From the IMG/VR virus record IMGVR_UViG_3300011115_000156, positions 1-22,382 of that record: 22,382 nucleotides of DNA; one strand, written 5' to 3'. Positions 2 through 22,305 of this stretch are shown piece after piece. Below the pieces are notes generated by a model. The model searched no databases, was not told the origin of the DNA, and was given only the letters and a program-made list of their open reading frames with translations. Origin of the DNA: a virus. The position numbers and the translations under genes are program-made. Numbering within the stretch: the first letter of the stretch is position 1; every line of letters begins with the position of its first letter.

Positions 2-3000
2 GAATACACATACGTTGAACAAGCGCTGGTGGCTAAGGCCGCATCTAAGTATGCTGTGCTGTCAGACAAAACAGGACGTTTGAAACTTGCCGAGATTGGT
101 AAAGACAATACGCACAATTTGGCGTTTATTAGTAGCAAAGACGCGGGCGAAGTCATTCGTAAGTTGCGTGAAGGTTTACCACTCAAGCAAGCGTTCCTTG
201 CAGGCATGCAGGAAATGGCTGACCGCAACGCAGAAAACAACGCTAAGAAAGACGGCTGGCAAAAGTTTGACCAACACCTATTGCCTGAGCGACCAGAAGT
301 GCGTGTGCGTTTGATGACGCCAGAAGACATGACGTTTAGCGGTATGCGTTTTGAAATGAAACGCGCAGACAACCCCAACTTGTTTGAAAGAAACGGACAG
401 CCCGTTGACCGCGCAGAACTTTCGGCAGAACTTCAAGCAATTTGGGAAAAAGAAATTTTTGAAAGAGGCGCACGAAGAGGCCCTGTAAGAGCCGGTCGTG
501 TACTGGCACGCCCTGTTCGTGTACCAGCACGCCCTGTTAATCTTGGCGAACAACTTCGGCAAATAGCAAATGCTGTAAACGCCGGGGAAGCCCGCCCACG
601 TACATTTGCGGATTTATTTGATGAAGAAGTTAAGCCCAATGCAGTTCGCGTTTTAAAACTTACAAACGAGCAAGCGGATTTGCTTCAACTGGAGAACGCC
701 CGTTTAGAAGTTGAAGGCGAACCAAAACTAACAACAATTGACGAGACCGCAAAGTTTTTAGATTCTTACTACACCGAAATTTACGCAAACGCAAAAGACA
801 TTCAAAAAGCAGCGGAAGAATTAAACGCTGGAGCCGCAAACACGTCTTGGTGTACAGGCAGTTCTGTACAGACTGCTAAGAATCAGATTGAGCAAGGCGA
901 CTTTTACATTTACTACAAGAACGGAAGCCCATCAGTTGCAGTTCGTATGAACGGTAAAACTGATGTTGGTGAAGTTCGTGGCAACACAGAGTCTCAAGGT
1001 CTTACAAATGAGCAAGAACTGATTGCCAAAGACTTTTTGTCTAGTAAAAACTTTACAGGTTCCGAAAGATTTATTGAAACGCTAGAGCGCAAACAAGCGC
1101 TGACAAGCATATTAAAAGGCGAGAAAGCTTTTGATGTGCCGTTTTTGATGAAGCTAGGTTCTTATCTAGACGATTCAACCGGCGATGCTCATACATACGA
1201 TGTACGTCGATTGTTAAATTTTTCTGCCATAGATGGCGAAAATTTTGTAGCACGCCCAGATCCAACCGATGCTTTAGTCGACGCTGTAGGTAAAAAATTA
1301 GGTGAATCAACAGAAGCCGCCACAAAAGAAGGCCACTTCCCCGGCATCCGCGGTTACTTTGCACTTAACCAATTTAATTACGAACTACGAGGTAATAGAT
1401 TTGAAGTTCCTGCCGACAATGTACGCACCGTCGACAGTATTCTTTTTATAGGCGGTGACGCATATTTACCAAATTTAGAATCAGTAAACGAAGTTTCGGT
1501 TTCTGGTGATACGGTTGTTCGTTTACCAAAAGTTAAAAACATTGATCTAATTAGATTTAGCGGAAAAGACAAAACCAAACCAATGTTGGTACTGGCAGAC
1601 AACGCGGTAATTAACCGTATTGAAACTGGCGACAGCTTGGAGACCACCCCCGGTAGGCTAAACGCCACAATTAAAAACGCAACGGTTGTTAACAAAATTT
1701 CAGTTAACGCCAACTTTACTGCGCTTGATTTGTCTTTACCGGATACTATTTACGCGCCTGAGATGACCCCTAAAGCGCGTGAGCGTGCTGTTGCTGACGG
1801 AAACTCCATGCAGTTTTTTGGGCTTATGCAAGAGCTTCAAAAACAATACGGCATAAAAAATATTAAAGCTGACGCTGACAACGATATTGTTAAAACGTTG
1901 CGTAACGCCACAAAAGAAGCGTTAGGTCAAAGTGCTGTTGATTACGCGGATGGTCTTGACTTTGGTGAGTTTGACACTAGCGAAGACAGAACTGCGGGAA
2001 ATATGTATGAGTGGTTGGCAAGCGTGCGAGAAGAGTTGGAGGCAAAACATGCTTCTCCAAAAGCAGACATTTTTAAAATTGCCAAGAAAGTAAACGCCGC
2101 TTTTGACATTGAAACTGTTGCGCCAGAAGAAAAGCTTATTGACAGCAGAAGCCAGCTTGGAACTGTTGATATCCCCAACCGCATAGCTGACCAACCACCA
2201 GTACTGGAGATGATCGAGCCAGAAGAGACGCCACGTTACGCACGGGCTGCGCAGTATGGTGAGGAGAATGCGTTGGTTGACTTGGCCAAAGACATCATGT
2301 CCAAGAAGAAAACTTGGAAAGAACAACTTGGCACTAAGCCATTTCTTCAAGCTGAAATGGAGTTGGTTGATATGCGCGCTGGTTTGCGCGAAGCTTTGAA
2401 AGCTGGCGCCAAAGAGATTGGCGACGACATGCTGTTTACTCAGGCTATGTCACACATTGTCATGGCCGACCAGAAGATGGCAATGTTAAATGCTTCGCTC
2501 CAAAAGGGGCCGATGGAGTTGTACACCGACGAAAAAGGTTTTAAAGGTGTCAGGTCTATTGACAAGGATAACGCGCTTGATGTGTTCAAGTCTGTTGCAG
2601 ACATCCCAATGGGTGATCCAGAAGCCAAAGCCAACATAGCTACCACCTACATGATTGCCCAACGTGCAATGAACAAGGGCGTGGCCAAGCTAGACCTAGG
2701 TGCTCTTGGTGTAACAGAGGAAAAACTTAAAGCCGCGCTTGCCGCAGCCAACGCCGACTCTAAACTTAAAAATGCACTGGAAGCAACCCGTTCTGCATAC
2801 AACGCGTACAACGAAGGCCAGATTAAGTTCTTGGCATCAACCGGCGCTATTACCAAAGCTGAAGCTGACAGACTGCTGAAAGAGGGTGACTTCATACCGT
2901 TCTATCGTGTCAACGAGAATGGTATGGCGCAATTGGTGTTTAGCGATGAGGTGACTGTAACGATTGGCGACATTCGTCGTCAGCCGTACCTGAAAGAACT

Positions 3001-4912
3001 AGTGGGCGGTGAGACTCGCATTTTACCAATCACCGAAACACTGCAACGCAATTCCTTGCTCATCATGGACAAGGCGCTGACAAACTTGGCTACCAAGAAT
3101 CTAGCGTATGCGTTCCAAAAGATTGGCGAAGGTAAGGGGCCTGTGGGCAAAGACGGCAAGCCGACTAGCGCTATGCCTATCCATATTGGTATGGGCCCCG
3201 CGTCCCCAGACGTTATTCGCTTTAACCAAGAGCCTAATCCCGACAAACCAGACGACAAGGGCGAGCGTTGGCTACGAGTTAAAACTAGTGACACCGTCAT
3301 GGGCGGTATCCCTGCCGAGTTAATTGTGAAGAGCTTGGAGGGCGCTCACCTGACGCTTCCCGCGTTCTTGAAGATTGGCGGTATTGCTGGTGACATCTTG
3401 CGCTCTGGCGTGACTCGCATGCCAATCTATATTGCGCGTCAGTTGGTTCGTGACCCAATGGCCGCAGCGTTTACGGGTGGTCTGGACTACAACCCCCTGA
3501 CAGCGGTGGTCAAAGCTGGTAAAGAGTTTGTAGCTTCCAGCCGTGGACAAAGCCCGATCAACGAAGAGATGATTAAAAAGGGTCTGATCCAGAGTGGCAT
3601 CTTCACTGGTGACCCAGACGACGTTGCTAAAATGGCTTTGCAGTTGGCAAGCGGTAAAGACCAGAGCGTTTTGGATAAAGTGTTTGCCGCAACAGACCGT
3701 TACGCAATGCGTGCTGATGCTGCCACCCGTGCGCTGGTGTATGAAAACGCACGTAGAAACGGACTGTCTGAAGTGGAAGCTGACTTGGCTGTACGCGAGT
3801 CAATGAACTTTTACAAGCGCGGTCTGTCACCCACAGTGCAGTACGCCAGCCGTTTGATTCCGTTCTTTAATGCGCAGATCCAAGGCTTGAACGTGTTGTA
3901 CAAAGCAGCCCGTGGCCAGATGCCGTTTGAAGAACAGATGCAGATTCAGCAGAAGTTTTTTAACAACGCATTGCTGTTGGTGGCTACAGGTATTGTCTAC
4001 GCCATGGCTATGGACGATGACGAGTACTACAAGAACGCTAAACCAAAGGATCGTTACACTAACTTCTTCCTGCACTTACCGGGCGTTGACGAGCCATTGA
4101 AGCTGCCTATCCCTTACGAGGCTGGTTGGTTCTTTTCCTTGGCTGTTGCCGCATCTGACGCTATGAAAGCTGAAGTTGATGGCGTCCAGCAGTTGGAAGC
4201 TCTGCGTGACATGTTCTTACAGTCAGTGCCGGGCTACAGTTCCAGAGGTGTGCCGCAGATTTTTAAACCCGCGTTTGAGGTCTACAGCAACAAGCGCTTT
4301 TTTAACGACTCAGCTATTGAATCGGCGCGTATGGAGAAGCTGTCGCCACAACAGCGGTTTTCTGAAACTACGACCGAAGCGGCTAAGATGTTGAGCAAAG
4401 TGTTGCCCGGATTTTCTCCTGTGCAGATTGAACACCTTGCCACAGGTTACTTTGGTCAGTTGCCTTTGATTGTTATGGGCGCGGCTGATGGTTTGTTCCG
4501 TAAAAAAACTCGTGGCGAACCTGCTGAGAAGCGTGTCTCAGACTTGCCGTTCATTGGCAGTTCATTCCAAAAGAAATACGGGGGTGCTGATTCTGATGTT
4601 ATGTACCGCATGGCAAGCGAATCTATGCAAGCCAAGGCTACCTTTGACGACATGCGAAAGAAAGGTCAGGGGCAGGAAGCTAGGGATTTCTTAGAAGACA
4701 ACCGGGCTTTAGTTGCATCAGCAGCTTTAGCACGTAACTACCAAAACGTCATGGGTAAGCTTCGCACTGATGTTGACCGCATCAATAACATGAAGAACAT
4801 GACAGGGGCTGAGAAACGTGCAAGGCTAGATAAAATCGATGCGGCACGCCAAGATGTGGCGGACAAGTTTGAGAAAGCTATGAAACGGATTGAGGCTTCC
4901 GGTAAAACATAA
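2..4912 (+). CDS. Giant polyvalent phage protein with LPD38-like C-terminal region (5' end outside window)
   Basis: The frame is open to the left edge with no stop. The first possible start inside the window, GTG at 29, has no ribosome site, so the gene most likely begins upstream. Residue numbers here count from that GTG. Near residue 274 there is a WCTG motif followed by a YIYY...G.P.VAVR pattern, recalling PcfJ-like 'WCT' domains. Residues ~468-570 look like irregular leucine-rich repeats. Residues ~800-1100 are alanine-rich helices. Around 1272 the stretch YASRLIPFFNAQIQG, then a hydrophobic segment (~1312-1330) and a LKLPIPYEAGWFF-like segment, resemble Large Polyvalent protein Domain 38. 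Such proteins are very long phage proteins thought to be packaged and delivered with the DNA; ejection or early host takeover is inferred here. It is the only + strand gene and converges on the replication block. Confidence 0.8.
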   Translation, partial: EYTYVEQALVAKAASKYAVLSDKTGRLKLAEIGKDNTHNLAFISSKDAGEVIRKLREGLPLKQAFLAGMQEMADRNAENNAKKDGWQKFDQHLLPERPEVRVRLMTPEDMTFSGMRFEMKRADNPNLFERNGQPVDRAELSAELQAIWEKEIFERGARRGPVRAGRVLARPVRVPARPVNLGEQLRQIANAVNAGEARPRTFADLFDEEVKPNAVRVLKLTNEQADLLQLENARLEVEGEPKLTTIDETAKFLDSYYTEIYANAKDIQKAAEELNAGAANTSWCTGSSVQTAKNQIEQGDFYIYYKNGSPSVAVRMNGKTDVGEVRGNTESQGLTNEQELIAKDFLSSKNFTGSERFIETLERKQALTSILKGEKAFDVPFLMKLGSYLDDSTGDAHTYDVRRLLNFSAIDGENFVARPDPTDALVDAVGKKLGESTEAATKEGHFPGIRGYFALNQFNYELRGNRFEVPADNVRTVDSILFIGGDAYLPNLESVNEVSVSGDTVVRLPKVKNIDLIRFSGKDKTKPMLVLADNAVINRIETGDSLETTPGRLNATIKNATVVNKISVNANFTALDLSLPDTIYAPEMTPKARERAVADGNSMQFFGLMQELQKQYGIKNIKADADNDIVKTLRNATKEALGQSAVDYADGLDFGEFDTSEDRTAGNMYEWLASVREELEAKHASPKADIFKIAKKVNAAFDIETVAPEEKLIDSRSQLGTVDIPNRIADQPPVLEMIEPEETPRYARAAQYGEENALVDLAKDIMSKKKTWKEQLGTKPFLQAEMELVDMRAGLREALKAGAKEIGDDMLFTQAMSHIVMADQKMAMLNASLQKGPMELYTDEKGFKGVRSIDKDNALDVFKSVADIPMGDPEAKANIATTYMIAQRAMNKGVAKLDLGALGVTEEKLKAALAAANADSKLKNALEATRSAYNAYNEGQIKFLASTGAITKAEADRLLKEGDFIPFYRVNENGMAQLVFSDEVTVTIGDIRRQPYLKELVGGETRILPITETLQRNSLLIMDKALTNLATKNLAYAFQKIGEGKGPVGKDGKPTSAMPIHIGMGPASPDVIRFNQEPNPDKPDDKGERWLRVKTSDTVMGGIPAELIVKSLEGAHLTLPAFLKIGGIAGDILRSGVTRMPIYIARQLVRDPMAAAFTGGLDYNPLTAVVKAGKEFVASSRGQSPINEEMIKKGLIQSGIFTGDPDDVAKMALQLASGKDQSVLDKVFAATDRYAMRADAATRALVYENARRNGLSEVEADLAVRESMNFYKRGLSPTVQYASRLIPFFNAQIQGLNVLYKAARGQMPFEEQMQIQQKFFNNALLLVATGIVYAMAMDDDEYYKNAKPKDRYTNFFLHLPGVDEPLKLPIPYEAGWFFSLAVAASDAMKAEVDGVQQLEALRDMFLQSVPGYSSRGVPQIFKPAFEVYSNKRFFNDSAIESARMEKLSPQQRFSETTTEAAKMLSKVLPGFSPVQIEHLATGYFGQLPLIVMGAADGLFRKKTRGEPAEKRVSDLPFIGSSFQKKYGGADSDVMYRMASESMQAKATFDDMRKKGQGQEARDFLEDNRALVASAALARNYQNVMGKLRTDVDRINNMKNMTGAEKRARLDKIDAARQDVADKFEKAMKRIEASGKT
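497..538 (+). repeat. Tandem 21-bp direct repeat inside the polyvalent gene
   Basis: Two adjacent 21-base units (497-517 and 518-538) differ at two positions and encode RVLARPV followed by RVPARPV. This gives a short Arg/Pro-rich linker between the N-terminal helical part and the rest of the protein. It looks like a recent in-frame duplication. Confidence 0.85.
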
Positions 4913-17301: not shown

Positions 17302-17964
17302 TCAACCCCCAAACATTTGCTTCAAGTGGGTGTACAACTCGTGCGCCTGATACACAGTCATGTCCTTCAGAATATCTTCGGGCGAACGTGTGCGTACAAG
17401 GGACACGAAAGCTCTGCGCTGTGGTGCAGGAGCCGTGGAAAAAGCAGCAGAGGCATCCAATGCGGCTTGGCTAGGCGCAGGCATATTCTCTAGCCGCTCC
17501 TTCAACAACGCACCAATGCCTGTTACGTCACGCTTAGTGTACTTGCGCTTAGGCACAGGCTCAGCTTTGGCTTCCATTTTCTTGATGGCCTTGAGCGATT
17601 TGATTGGGCGGTACTCGTCAACGTCGGCGTAGTACAAGTTGTTGGTTTCGTGAACCATGTTGTTGCGACGTAACTGTGCAATCAGGCTAGACACAGAGTC
17701 TGATCTGAAATCTTGATGCTCCAGTGCTTCTATGATTTCTTTTCGCGTGGAGCCGGGATTGTCTTTGATGTATTGGAAGGTTACGCGTGAGACGTTGTTT
17801 GTTACGCCAAAAGTTTTTTTCATGGGAATTTCCTGAGTTGATACAGTTTTGTTGACAGTAGTGTTGATAGTAGTAGAAGGTGGGGAGACTGTCTCCCCAT
17901 CGTCATCCCACTGTTGTAAGGTTTTGCTAAGCGCTTGTTTGAAAGCAGTTTGAATGTCAGGCAT
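17302..17964 (-). CDS. Winged-helix DNA-binding protein (220 aa)
   Basis: Residues ~57-113 form a winged helix: a first helix (SRVTFQYIKDN), a STRKEIIEAL helix, a SVSSLIAQLRRNNMV recognition helix and a two-strand wing ending LYYAD. The rest is a Ser/Thr-rich N-terminus and a basic, Ala/Pro-rich linker (KAEPVPKRKYTKRD). It is probably a phage transcription or replication regulator. GGAGG precedes the ATG at 17964. An internal ATG (M48) also has AGGAAA upstream and could make a shorter form. It overlaps the 72-aa membrane gene by eight bases and is the second gene after the 18196-18225 promoter, so it may regulate itself. Confidence 0.75.
   Translation of the reverse strand: MPDIQTAFKQALSKTLQQWDDDGETVSPPSTTINTTVNKTVSTQEIPMKKTFGVTNNVSRVTFQYIKDNPGSTRKEIIEALEHQDFRSDSVSSLIAQLRRNNMVHETNNLYYADVDEYRPIKSLKAIKKMEAKAEPVPKRKYTKRDVTGIGALLKERLENMPAPSQAALDASAAFSTAPAPQRRAFVSLVRTRSPEDILKDMTVYQAHELYTHLKQMFGG
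17881..17899. repeat. 19-bp dyad shared with two other sites, here inside a gene
   Basis: TGGGGAGAC, one base, then GTCTCCCCA form perfect nine-base arms. This matches 17 of 19 positions of the dyad at 22287-22305 and the core of the one at 20138-20156. It lies in the N-terminal part of the winged-helix gene, upstream of the internal M48 start. Because it is inside a reading frame, it cannot simply be a gene-end terminator. Confidence 0.6.
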
Positions 17965-18971: not shown

Positions 18972-19000
18972 GGTTAAAAATGCGGGGGCGAACCCCCGCT
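18972..19000 (-). terminator. Intrinsic terminator-like hairpin after the amidotransferase gene
   Basis: On the - strand, GCGGGGG, a UUCG tetraloop and CCCCCGC are followed by ATTTTTAA. The stem begins about six bases past the TGA of the amidotransferase gene. The ribosome site of the next gene follows the U-run immediately, so partial termination or mRNA stabilisation is likely rather than a full stop. Confidence 0.7.
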
Positions 19001-19005
19001 ACACA

Positions 19006-20112
19006 TCAAGTCAACAGTGCAGGCAATGTTGGCTTGAACGATACAGGTGTGCGTACATCCCATTGCAGGTAGTAGCACATCACCTCGGCAACGATGCCGA
19101 CTGAGCCATACGACTTGGTCACTGAACTGATAAGACCAGACGCATCGCCCTCCATCAGCATATCGTAGATGCCCTGCTCGGCAAAGCATAAGTCATCACG
19201 ATGTGTGTAGCTCAGAGGCGAAGGCTTATAGCAGTGCAGTAGCGTAGTGATTGTGTACGCAGGCATCTGGTCAAGCCATACCTCCATCGTCTCTACGTCA
19301 GCCTCGGTCAACGCACAGGCAATGTCGTCAGGGGTAGGCTGAACGAAGCCATCCTCGTCATCAGGAAAGTCATACGCTGTCTCGTCGTAGTTGGCGCTGT
19401 GTGCGCTGACCAAGCGGGGCTTGATACCGAAGCTTGCGTTGTAGTCGTACATCTCGTCGTACTCGTCGTCCATGTAGCTGCCGTAGCTGCTCGTGTAACT
19501 GTATGACTTGAGTGTCGCACTCTTGTAGCTGGGGATCAGGCGTGATGGAGACCACGCATAGGTATTGCTGAACCACAGTTCCTCGTGCTCGATGCCCTGA
19601 TCGAAGTTGACGTGTTGCATACGACCCTCGCCATTCATGAACACAAAGCGATTGTTGCCGATGAACTCCTCGAGCATATCAACGAAGCCCTTGTCATACA
19701 CGAGGTCAGGTGACGCAGACACAGCGGTGTGCAAGTAGTCATTGATGAAGTGCCACGTATCTGACTTGGTTTTGTCAGCAGTATTGCCTGTGTGCAGGAT
19801 GCCGTTGTGCATCATGGCGATGTAGCCAGGAATCACATCATACGGATGGCAGTTAATCATGTCAGTCTTGCCGTGCGTAGTCCAGCGAAAGTGAATGGCA
19901 ATCTCACGATCGTCATTAGGCAAGCGCTGAATGAATGCAGTAGCATCGCCAAGATTCTTAGGCAAAGTCTTGGTAACCTTCAGTCCCTTGGCAGTGCCGT
20001 ACATAAAGCCGATGCCGTCAGGGTTGGATGTGAAGATGTCGCTCAGTAGCCCGTGCGTGTTGAGCAGGGTTGAACGAACTTTGGAAGACTTGCCAGTAAT
20101 AATTAAACACAT
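19006..20112 (-). CDS. Class II glutamine amidotransferase-like protein (368 aa)
   Basis: The protein begins Met-Cys (C2), so once Met is removed Cys becomes the N-terminal nucleophile of an Ntn hydrolase. Further GATase II marks: NPDGIGFM (30-37), IHFRWTTHG (73-81, with R76), NCHPY (87-91), MHNG (101-104) and SDT (117-119). These bind glutamine and form the oxyanion hole. The ~170 C-terminal residues are unusual, with a Tyr/Ser/Asp-rich stretch (~205-235), and match no domain I know. It would release ammonia from glutamine or make an acyl-enzyme. The partner is very likely the amidoligase encoded just upstream. AAGGAG precedes the ATG at 20112. Confidence 0.85.
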   Translation of the reverse strand: MCLIITGKSSKVRSTLLNTHGLLSDIFTSNPDGIGFMYGTAKGLKVTKTLPKNLGDATAFIQRLPNDDREIAIHFRWTTHGKTDMINCHPYDVIPGYIAMMHNGILHTGNTADKTKSDTWHFINDYLHTAVSASPDLVYDKGFVDMLEEFIGNNRFVFMNGEGRMQHVNFDQGIEHEELWFSNTYAWSPSRLIPSYKSATLKSYSYTSSYGSYMDDEYDEMYDYNASFGIKPRLVSAHSANYDETAYDFPDDEDGFVQPTPDDIACALTEADVETMEVWLDQMPAYTITTLLHCYKPSPLSYTHRDDLCFAEQGIYDMLMEGDASGLISSVTKSYGSVGIVAEVMCYYLQWDVRTPVSFKPTLPALLT

Positions 20113-20128
20113 AATGAAACTCCTTGAT

Positions 20129-20156
20129 GTAAAAGAATGGGGAGAGTTACTCCCCG
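20129..20156 (-). terminator. Terminator-like hairpin between amidoligase and amidotransferase genes
   Basis: On the - strand, GGGGAG, a five-base loop and CTCCCC are followed by ATTCTTTT. The hairpin lies in the 59-base gap. Its U-run leads directly to the AAGGAG of the amidotransferase gene, leaving no room for a promoter. It matches the hairpin at 22287-22305 at 16 of 19 positions. Confidence 0.6.
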
Positions 20157-20171
20157 TTTGGTTGTTGATGA

Positions 20172-22259
20172 TTACTCAGAGACTGAGTTAGCTGACACAG
20201 GGTTGTGACCCATAATCAGTTCGTTGAAGCTGTCCTCTTGCAGACGCCACACATCGCCGTCACGCACATAGATCACATCGGTGTCACCGATGTGCTCATC
20301 GTCACCCCCGTACGGGAACACAGCCAACTCCAAGCCGAGTGCTCTGAAGAAGGTGAAGTACAGCCCGTATCGGTCAGCGTAGCCACGTATATCTGCATAA
20401 GGTATCTCAGACAGATAGCGATGGTCATGCCCTTGGGCATAGCGAGACGCTACGGCAGGGGCAGGAGGCACAGCATCAGTACAAGTCTCCATCGCTGGTG
20501 CGATGACTGTCGGCACAGATGTGTGTACATTGCGCACGCCATACCACTTAGTCAGCGCAGGGTACTGACCCGCCACAGTCTTGAGCCACTTGACGAACGA
20601 TGTGCCGTTGAGATCACGCCACGATGCGACACGGCAGAACATGACAGACGCATGAGTGAACTCGATCTGTGCAAGCAGCCTCTCCTTCTTGAGTGATGCA
20701 CGGAAGATACGCAACTCGACAGTGTTGTACTTGCCGTTGTAGCTGTTGTCCATGTTAAGACCAAGACGCCGAGCCTCACGAGAGCCAAGGTTGCACATAT
20801 TAACCATGCGATAGCGCTCACCAGACTTACCCTTGACAGCCTTCTTGGGGTTGGTAAGGATGGACTGATGCTCAGCGGCGCAGTAGCTACGGGCTTGGTC
20901 ATCGACAGATGGATGGCGACCAGCAATCTTACGAATGAAGTCGACGTTGCCATTGCTGTTGATGAACATGAGGAACTTGCCAAGCGTCAACTGCGTGAAG
21001 GCACGGGAGTCGATATGGACATGCATACCGCACTTGCCCGTGTTCCATGCACGATAGGTTGGATCGATCTCCCACGCTTTGAACTTCTCGATGTGCTTGG
21101 CTAGACCTTGCGGTGAAGTCACGACCTCGAAGCCATTGTAAGGAAGCGAGCCATCACTCTTGATGATGCAGTATGAGGTACCCAAGCGGCTACGCACAGA
21201 CTCAGCGGCTGAGTTGGTGTCCGAGTCGCCTGATGTCATCTCAAGCTCAATGCCCATCGTGAACTCACCGAAGTGAGACGACGTGATGCCCGAAGGATCG
21301 TCAAGCACATGAAGCACATTGGTAGAGTACGACATGATTGGCTGGTTGCGGTCATCATCGTCATCATCGTCATCATCGTCATCGTCATCGCCCTCGCTGT
21401 CACGATCGTACGTATAGTAGGCATCACGAGTCTCAGAGTAGTACGCATCGTCACGAGGCCAATACTCACCATTGTCCTCGCAGTACACAGCGTCATCATC
21501 GAAGCACGAGTCGCACCACGTATCGTTACGCACACTGTGCGTGTTGTCCTCGTCTTCGTAGTGACCGCAGTCGCAATGCACAATGCCAAGATCCAAATCA
21601 CGAACAGCGTCAAACGCATTCTCCATATGGCTAGTGGCATCGGCGTAGCGACTGGATAAGTCAAAGAACGCAGTGCGTATCGCATCGTTGGTGATGGACT
21701 CATCGCCTGCCTTGGCACGAGCTACGAGATGACCGAAGTGTTGGAACGAACTACGCACAAGTCTGAACACATCTACGTGGTAGTAGTACCCGCCCTTGAA
21801 CATAGCGTGAGTATTAGGAGTGTGATTCCCATACGCATCTGGATCGTGCTTGCGTGCATAAGCCTCGACAACTGCCTCGATACGAGTAGACCACGCATTA
21901 CGAATAGCACGAGGCATATCACCCATGCTTGCTGGTGTCAGCAGTCTACGCATCATCTGATGCATATCGTAGCGATCACGGCTCTCATCGCAAGCCTGTT
22001 TGTATGTCATAGCACGAGGTGCGAACTCTCCCTCACCCTTGACACGACAGCGTGAGGTACGAGTCCACACAGCTAAGTTGCCTGTAGTAATCAGATCGAG
22101 GGGCTTGATGCCCGCATCCATGTACTGCATCTCTGAGTAGACGAGACGTCTACGAGATGCGTTGTACACCATGTACCGCTTGTTGAGCGATACGATATAG
22201 ATGGTGTTCTCGAGTGAGTCAACGAAGTCCTCCATCACGAACCTAGTTATTTGAAACAT
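20172..22259 (-). CDS. Amidoligase (glutamine-synthetase-fold COOH-NH2 ligase), 695 aa
   Basis: The catalytic domain (~330-550) shows the Amidoligase_2 signature in order: GIELE (336-340), KSDGS (367-371), FEVVTSP (377-383), CGMHVHID (410-417, H413 and H415) and VELRIF (514-519, E515 and R517). It is expected to use ATP to join a carboxylate to an amine. The long N-terminal part (~1-225) is helical and unrecognised. A segment with C229, C231, C249, C252 and C260 may bind zinc. A 13-Asp run (291-303) links it to the ligase. The C-terminal ~100 residues are unassigned. AAGGAG precedes the ATG at 22259. The amidotransferase gene follows on the same strand. Confidence 0.85.
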   Translation of the reverse strand: MFQITRFVMEDFVDSLENTIYIVSLNKRYMVYNASRRRLVYSEMQYMDAGIKPLDLITTGNLAVWTRTSRCRVKGEGEFAPRAMTYKQACDESRDRYDMHQMMRRLLTPASMGDMPRAIRNAWSTRIEAVVEAYARKHDPDAYGNHTPNTHAMFKGGYYYHVDVFRLVRSSFQHFGHLVARAKAGDESITNDAIRTAFFDLSSRYADATSHMENAFDAVRDLDLGIVHCDCGHYEDEDNTHSVRNDTWCDSCFDDDAVYCEDNGEYWPRDDAYYSETRDAYYTYDRDSEGDDDDDDDDDDDDDRNQPIMSYSTNVLHVLDDPSGITSSHFGEFTMGIELEMTSGDSDTNSAAESVRSRLGTSYCIIKSDGSLPYNGFEVVTSPQGLAKHIEKFKAWEIDPTYRAWNTGKCGMHVHIDSRAFTQLTLGKFLMFINSNGNVDFIRKIAGRHPSVDDQARSYCAAEHQSILTNPKKAVKGKSGERYRMVNMCNLGSREARRLGLNMDNSYNGKYNTVELRIFRASLKKERLLAQIEFTHASVMFCRVASWRDLNGTSFVKWLKTVAGQYPALTKWYGVRNVHTSVPTVIAPAMETCTDAVPPAPAVASRYAQGHDHRYLSEIPYADIRGYADRYGLYFTFFRALGLELAVFPYGGDDEHIGDTDVIYVRDGDVWRLQEDSFNELIMGHNPVSANSVSE
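21352..21390 (-). repeat. GAT/GAC trinucleotide tract encoding 13 aspartates
   Basis: The + strand shows three copies of TCATCATCG followed by two of TCATCG. Read on the - strand, these are 13 aspartate codons alternating GAT and GAC. It is an in-frame microsatellite that can change length by slippage without breaking the amidoligase frame. It separates the Cys-rich segment from the ligase domain. Confidence 0.9.
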
Positions 22260-22275
22260 ACACTTCTCCTTGATT

Positions 22276-22305
22276 TATAAAAAGAATGGGGAGAATTTCT
22301 CCCCA
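22276..22305 (-). terminator. Terminator-like hairpin before the amidoligase gene
   Basis: On the - strand, TGGGGAGAA and TTCTCCCCA are nine-base arms around a single base, followed by TTCTTTTTAT. It ends the gene entering from the right, and the AAGGAG of the amidoligase gene comes next. It is one of three related 19-base dyads in the window. Confidence 0.65.

Follow-up and report, generated by a model that had tools for sequence, protein, structure and literature searches.

An Amidoligase_2 gene followed by a class II glutamine amidotransferase gene in a freshwater phage: a putative two-subunit carboxylate-amidating system

What reaction is catalyzed, and on what target, by two proteins that are encoded one behind the other in the virus record IMGVR_UViG_3300011115_000156 is the question raised by this locus. 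The window, by which we mean the whole stretch of DNA analyzed, is the entire record of 22,382 bases from a freshwater phage. On its minus strand an open reading frame (ORF) check recovers an Amidoligase_2 protein of 695 residues (here AML) and, downstream of it on the same strand after a gap of 59 nt, a class II glutamine amidotransferase of 368 residues (here GAT) that begins Met-Cys; coordinates are collected in Table 1. The answer that we consider probable, with appreciable room for doubt, is that AML and GAT form a two-subunit glutamine-dependent system for amidating carboxylates, for which we infer both the chemistry and the hand-over of ammonia.

The evidence for the ligase comes from its family score, its residues and its predicted structure. 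AML exceeds the gathering cut-off of Pfam PF12224 (34.2 bits compared with 22, E 3.3e-8) and carries the motifs GIELE (residues 336-340), DGS (369-371), CGMHVHID (410-417) and VELRIF (514-519), within which E338, E340, D369, S371, H413, H415, E515 and R517 are invariant in 60/60 aligned sequences. In an AlphaFold2 model (mean predicted local distance difference test score 86; predicted template modelling score, pTM, 0.51) the best structural match of residues 326-603 is YbdK (1r8g; Z 11.8, root-mean-square deviation (rmsd) 4.4, 231 residues aligned), followed by glutamine synthetases (Z up to 10.6), plant glutamate-cysteine ligase (10.2) and PafA (9.8). Foldseek ranks glutamine synthetase first (E 0.0024, with no match below 0.001), and a viral structure library returns phage amidoligases (best E 1.5e-14). 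AML is thus predicted to have the glutamine synthetase (GS) fold with conserved metal- and ATP-binding motifs.

For GAT the corresponding motifs are Cys2, HFRW (residues 74-77), HNG (102-104) and SDT (117-119). C2, R76, H102, N103 and G104 are present in 44/44 aligned sequences and D118 in 40/44, the remaining four being bacterial rows in which T-D-S lies a few residues further on. These positions are presumably equivalent to GlmS C1, R73, N98, G99 and D123, and GAT would accordingly have an N-terminal Cys nucleophile and glutamine-binding residues, roles that we carry over from GlmS. In the predicted structure (AlphaFold2, mean local distance score 80, pTM 0.55) residues 2-200 resemble EgtC, GlmS and PurF; the leading matches are EgtC (4zfj; Z 12.7, rmsd 3.8, 176 aligned) and GlmS (2j6h; Z 12.2, rmsd 4.4, 183 aligned), and Foldseek finds GlmS at E 8e-7.

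The two genes also keep company elsewhere. Single-protein scans of viral contigs gave 62 GAT loci and 41 AML loci; given these relatives and the low ratios of nonsynonymous to synonymous substitution (dN/dS) in both cores, reported below, chance ORFs were rejected. Alignment-based scans gave 488 relatives of GAT and at least 571 of AML, from which 80 and 79 distinct loci, respectively, were kept. Among 247 sequences (several loci per contig) both genes occur in 212, GAT only in 18 and AML only in 17, and in 33 of the 35 single-gene sequences the contig breaks off at the expected place of the partner. The two-gene sequences, 212 in number and from viral and phage records, collapse by their protein ends to 95 distinct pairs, all 95 with AML then GAT on one strand, at an offset below 300 bases in 90 and of 302-1028 bases in five. 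When loci with any common exact 400-mer are merged (named-record loci excluded), both genes are found in 71 of 88 groups.

In the preliminary description of this DNA, made from its letters, both ORFs had been read with their motifs, and coordinates, strand, Met-Cys start and motif positions are all confirmed. It had further expected a GS fold for AML, an Ntn-hydrolase (N-terminal nucleophile) fold for GAT and adjacent pairs in related phages; the predicted structures, together with motif conservation in AML, bear out both folds, and the 95 pairs bear out the pairing, so that neither a lack of these folds nor a set of relatives in which the genes are never adjacent was seen. Its proposal of glutamine as nitrogen donor finds support in the conserved GAT residues, as far as sequence can speak to this.

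The coupling of AML and GAT is supported by the gene pairing and the conserved residues; ligase and glutaminase couples of this general kind are GatB with GatA, MurT with GatD, and AsnB. In the mechanism that we propose, Cys2 of GAT would hydrolyze glutamine to glutamate and ammonia, AML with ATP and metal would convert a carboxylate of the target to an acyl phosphate, and ammonia from GAT would turn this activated group into a carboxamide. If GAT supplies ammonia, an isopeptide, which had been suggested alongside a plain amide, is the less likely product. As target we consider a macromolecule or a peptide linked to the envelope probable; it may be held by the zinc-knuckle-like segment of AML and by the N- and C-terminal domains of that protein, which change faster. 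During takeover the modification would alter some part of the host, such as carboxylates of wall peptides, thereby excluding competing phages.

Several observations weigh against such a two-subunit system. In Clostridioides phage AR1086-1 (L098) and Microcoleus phage My-WqHQDG (L099, a partial genome), the two single-gene sequences that are not cut off at the partner's expected place, AML was found with no GAT next to it, and no natural AML-GAT fusion was found among the ORFs examined. One contig (L001/L079) carries a GAT of 100% identity at one end and a cut AML of 85% identity at the other; if this contig is circular, AML and GAT can recombine apart. The pTM of both models is modest. GAT falls below the Pfam cut-offs for GATase_4/6 (PF13230, 12.7 of 23 bits; PF13522, 13.4 of 27 bits) and matches GlmS partially (residues 71-107, E 1e-6, far under the model cut-off), so that it is assigned from its residues and predicted fold. 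Finally, EgtC is its top structural match, within 1 Z of GlmS, and GAT alone might be a gamma-glutamyl hydrolase. Apart from these points, in-frame fusion or read-through as a regular feature was rejected: the AML-GAT gap is in frame in 26/78 loci, the AML stop codon is TAA in 76/78 (in both counts loci of one contig are counted more than once), and no fused ORF was seen.

The identity of the target is best approached through phage tf, in which homologous genes adjoin within a larger cassette: by hhalign, AML matches tf_21 (E 9e-7, probability 91) and GAT matches tf_22 (E 5e-6, probability 86). This remote homology favors amidation of the peptidoglycan stem for superinfection exclusion, with AML-GAT as a stripped-down phiEco32/RIO-1/tf cassette, a special case of carboxylate amidation in which the substrate is named. 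Wall modification and superinfection exclusion are put forward in passages of PMC5498523, PMC10580990, PMC6256558 and PMC11318856, as a proposal citing Iyer. Against it, the COOH-NH2 ligase (PF14395) and GGCT (PF06094) are found in 0/12 relatives (records of 41-68 kb and of unstated completeness, the window being a 22-kb fragment), in a search in which phage tf as control was positive for both, and they are also absent from five other phage records searched; a full peptidoglycan modification cassette was rejected on the first of these results. The tf ATP-grasp protein is likewise found in 0/12, in a search whose control was only the tf self-match, so that a diverged ATP-grasp could be missed, and a PF13535 search that gave 0/12 missed phage tf too. 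In addition, pairs occur in Clostridial genomes, many of them adjoining a serine recombinase. Because the companion genes are found in none of the 12 relatives, a wall peptide is only one candidate among several, and we regard this substrate as possible while leaning against it.

A different kind of target is suggested by the parts of AML that surround the ligase core. The preliminary description had left unexplained the N-terminal part and Cys-rich segment of AML and a Tyr/Ser/Asp-rich region of GAT, and this holds now in part. The Cys-rich segment resembles a zinc knuckle, and its counterpart in a bacterial relative is LIM-like: C231, C249 and C252 are each present in 59/60 aligned sequences and C229 in 38/60, and the one bacterial relative scanned (L323) scores above the Pfam LIM cut-off, while the same segment of the window's own AML has no match in the Pfam and PHROGs scan. 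The GAT stretch, residues 195-258, is largely predicted to be disordered, consistent with a linker, and helices follow from 261. AML residues 1-224, most of which are modelled with good confidence, form a faster-evolving N-terminal domain that still lacks a family match: Pfam and PHROGs gave nothing below 0.05 for the N-terminal 225 or C-terminal 96 residues of AML, nor for the C-terminal 111 residues of GAT. When the window genes were compared with 17 AML and 16 GAT relatives, median dN/dS was 0.15 in the AML core, 0.22 in the zinc part, 0.37 in the N-terminal and 0.47 in the C-terminal domain, and 0.11, 0.15 and 0.24 in the GAT core, linker and C-terminal domain, respectively. The AML flanking domains thus appear less constrained than the catalysts, which fits recognition of a substrate or partner in changing hosts, or simply looser constraint.

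These features would accord with amidation of protein or nucleoprotein carboxyls, in which AML would dock through its zinc and N-terminal domains and convert Asp/Glu or C-terminal carboxylates to amides: a zinc-knuckle or LIM-type segment precedes the ligase in phage and bacterial members, the flanking domains evolve faster than the core, and the pair is found in unrelated kinds of phages and bacteria. However, zinc segments are also common structural elements, the AML relative L244 has by eye no such Cys cluster, and to our knowledge no enzyme of this type dedicated to side-chain amidation has been described, which counts against it; we consider it unlikely. Less likely still is a phage-borne protein-amidation machine in which those two domains would pick a host protein or other macromolecule and GAT would feed the ammonia that turns specific Asp/Glu or C-terminal carboxylates into amides; we know of no dedicated enzyme for such post-translational carboxyl amidation.

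The structural matches raise another alternative, small-molecule metabolism, in which the pair would make or break gamma-glutamyl or other amides with GAT as an EgtC-like hydrolase. Both top matches point this way, EgtC for GAT and, for AML, YbdK, which we take to be a carboxylate-amine ligase. A passage of PMC10945688 on a phage whose genes are similar puts forward a role in nitrogen metabolism. Yet no pathway genes were recognized among the window proteins scanned, and the large extra domains of AML are not expected for such a ligase, so that this explanation, too, seems doubtful to us. Carboxylate amidation by AML with ammonia from GAT, the target left general, is the reading carried forward.

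Beyond phages, bacterial genomes were scanned and the hits ordered by their similarity to locus L100, which gave 271 relatives, of which the best 80 were kept; because the kept loci are the top of the ranking, the list is no measure of spread. Their record titles name Clostridia, mostly Oscillospiraceae, or Bacillota. GAT lies directly behind AML in 74/76 testable loci, the exceptions being L264, in which the GAT frame overlap is over the limit set, and L289, in which no GAT was found. A serine recombinase cluster is present in 51/80 and a DUF3846-like cluster in 39/80, each named from one scanned example; a PF12957 (DUF3846) profile run on the 12 relatives led nowhere, and no positive control responded. 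In these Clostridial loci (L247-L326) AML-GAT often stands with a DUF3846-like gene and a small serine recombinase, and some genomes hold several copies, e.g. Pseudoflavonifractor phocaeensis An858 (L255, L267, L313); it is possible that the loci are a mobile cassette. In a gut phage scaffold (L101:2989-7224) AML-GAT lies directly upstream of scaffold- and major capsid-like ORFs (named by eye), a position unlike that found elsewhere.

In the phage of the window, AML-GAT stands near the 5' end of a gene row that continues into polymerase, exonuclease and helicase, and from this position it is probably expressed early in infection. In longer relatives (L063, L070 and others) a 513-residue ORF some 4 kb past AML, in the opposite orientation, is the large terminase, and ORFs of 193 and 745 residues beside it are taken, by size and place, as small terminase and portal. 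The terminase is closest (~50-53%) to those of Pelagibacter phages HTVC027P and HTVC023P, phage 023Pt_psg01 and phage DSL-LC04. None of these four is among the AML or GAT tblastn matches in 50,697 phage records, a search from which phage tf is absent as well, so that it overlooks distant members. Elsewhere in the window, an open-ended ORF of 1636 residues (2-4912, plus strand, opposite to the early genes) contains LPD38, a large polyvalent protein associated domain (E 7e-26). PADLOC led nowhere.

Perhaps more surprising than the pair itself is an array of palindromes around it. One GGGGA...TCCCC palindrome stands ahead of AML and another ahead of GAT, each made terminator-like by a T-rich tail. 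Because these hairpins sit directly before start sites, GAT would be expected to depend on read-through or antitermination for its expression. A T-tailed hairpin occurs in 26/29 distinct AML-GAT gaps of close relatives (not in L029, L050 or L058), compared with 2/34 other gaps and 1.3% of mononucleotide shuffles; its sixth stem pair is A-T in 9 gaps, G-C in 8 and C-G in 10 (one C-G, L205, from a more distant group). Hairpins with T-rich tails also lie upstream of AML in 28/28 unique lineage sequences (shuffles 8%; not all of the GGGG type) and downstream of GAT in 35/40 (shuffles 4%). The array was seen in the window, in L063, L067, L070, L075, L080 and L202, and in the records behind L001, L004, L020, L029 and L202. 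Its members, 14-17 bp of the form GGGGA-xy...y'x'-TCCCC, lie before Shine-Dalgarno sites in some cases and within genes in others. Of eight records searched, five have 6-9 of them per genome and three have none, against 0-1 of the reversed pattern; nearly all fall within an early segment of 6-8 kb around AML-GAT, the L001 record (taken as circular) and the L020 record having a single outlier apiece.

The arm letters are genome-specific: within-genome agreement is 0.62 compared with 0.34 after shuffling (0/2000; 220 palindromes in 26 groups, of which some combine several genomes). Arm type was also compared with alleles of nearby genes, loci of one contig being merged and the shuffles ignoring relatedness. 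The strongest contrast is with a 234-residue protein of no recognized family, encoded upstream of AML in relatives and outside the window (L063:6144-6845 and homologues), for which identity is 0.71 within and 0.49 between arm types (n=30, 0/1000 shuffles); for a 156-residue neighbor (L063:4843-5313) the values are 0.68 and 0.45 (n=7, 15/1000). The link is weaker for GAT (0.80 and 0.72, 0/1000) and for a winged-helix ORF at 17964..17302 (0.58 and 0.49, 2/1000), and AML is hardly linked (0.70 and 0.68, 68/1000); two more candidate genes had too few homologues to compare. With types of the 234-residue protein named after viewing the alignment, and with palindromes closer than 200 bases to the gene left out and loci merged, type I goes with GA arms in nine cases and AC in three, type II with AA in 4/4 and type III with C-arms in 8/9 (unmerged, three exceptions in 18); there are five others. 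The type I coding sequence itself contains a palindrome, and the amino acids encoded there vary with arm type. The palindromes look like operators or RNA hairpins with a phage-specific recognizer, for which the 234-residue protein is a candidate and its 156-residue neighbor another, as judged from these sequence comparisons. The nearest published case, according to a passage of PMC4351075, is that of Cluster O mycobacteriophages, whose 17-bp palindromes have no known function.

Table 1. Features of the AML-GAT locus in window coordinates; AML domain limits are our own, drawn from the model and the alignments.
Feature	Position	Strand	Remarks
AML	20172..22259	-	N-terminal domain 1-224; zinc-knuckle-like segment 225-285; Asp tract 291-303
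AML, rest	20172..22259	-	predicted GS-fold ligase core ~326-603; C-terminal domain 604-690
AML catalytic motifs GxExE, DGS, CGxHxH, RY..N, TxExR	20703..21254	-	residues 336-519; from alignment
CxCGH...CxxC zinc-knuckle-like segment	21504..21575	-	AML residues 229-252; from alignment
GAT	19006..20112	-	Ntn core 1-190; Tyr/Ser/Asp-rich linker ~195-258; helical C-terminal domain ~261-353
Palindrome GGGGAGAAATTCTCCCC, tail TTCTTTTT	22287..22305	-	array palindrome at 22304-22288; directly before AML Shine-Dalgarno
Palindrome GGGGAGTAACTCTCCCC, tail ATTCTTTT, terminator-like	20139..20155	-	in AML-GAT gap (20113-20171), directly before GAT Shine-Dalgarno
Terminator-like hairpin GCGGGGGTTCGCCCCCGC-ATTTTT	18982..18999	-	after GAT
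GGGGA...TCCCC palindrome	17898-17882	-	third copy in the window

The AML-GAT pairing is already known from phage tf and its relatives, from OM43 phages and from mycobacteriophage Marvin. In Marvin (gp105/gp106) and in the OM43 phages MEP401 and MEP402 homologous Amidoligase_2 and GATase genes adjoin in the same order and on the same strand as in the window, and in the MEP phages a few small genes lie between the pair and the DNA primase gene downstream. Identity to the window proteins is ~26-31% over the matched parts, and differences lie in the N-terminal part of AML, in the C-terminal part of GAT and in spacing (as annotated, a 10-nt overlap in MEP and 79 nt in Marvin, where the window has 59 nt with a hairpin). 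The adjoining Amidoligase_2 and GATase genes that mark the phiEco32/RIO-1/LUZ24/tf cassette are present in the window, and the order of the couple is that of phage tf, whose stretch comprises COOH-NH2 ligase, Amidoligase_2, GATase, ATP-grasp and GGCT. The Clostridial loci share gene order, zinc segment and GS-fold motifs with the window, and differ in a shorter AML of ~370 residues as well as in the recombinase and DUF3846-like neighbors. YbdK and glutamine synthetase for AML, and the GlmS N-terminal domain and EgtC for GAT, have folds like those predicted here and presumably the same catalytic residues; unlike AML and GAT they are single enzymes with their own substrates, at ~8-19% identity in structural alignments. 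The couple spans phages of very different hosts and gut Clostridia, with an order that is constant in nearly all pairs, and its compact two-gene form makes it the simplest system in which to find what is amidated.

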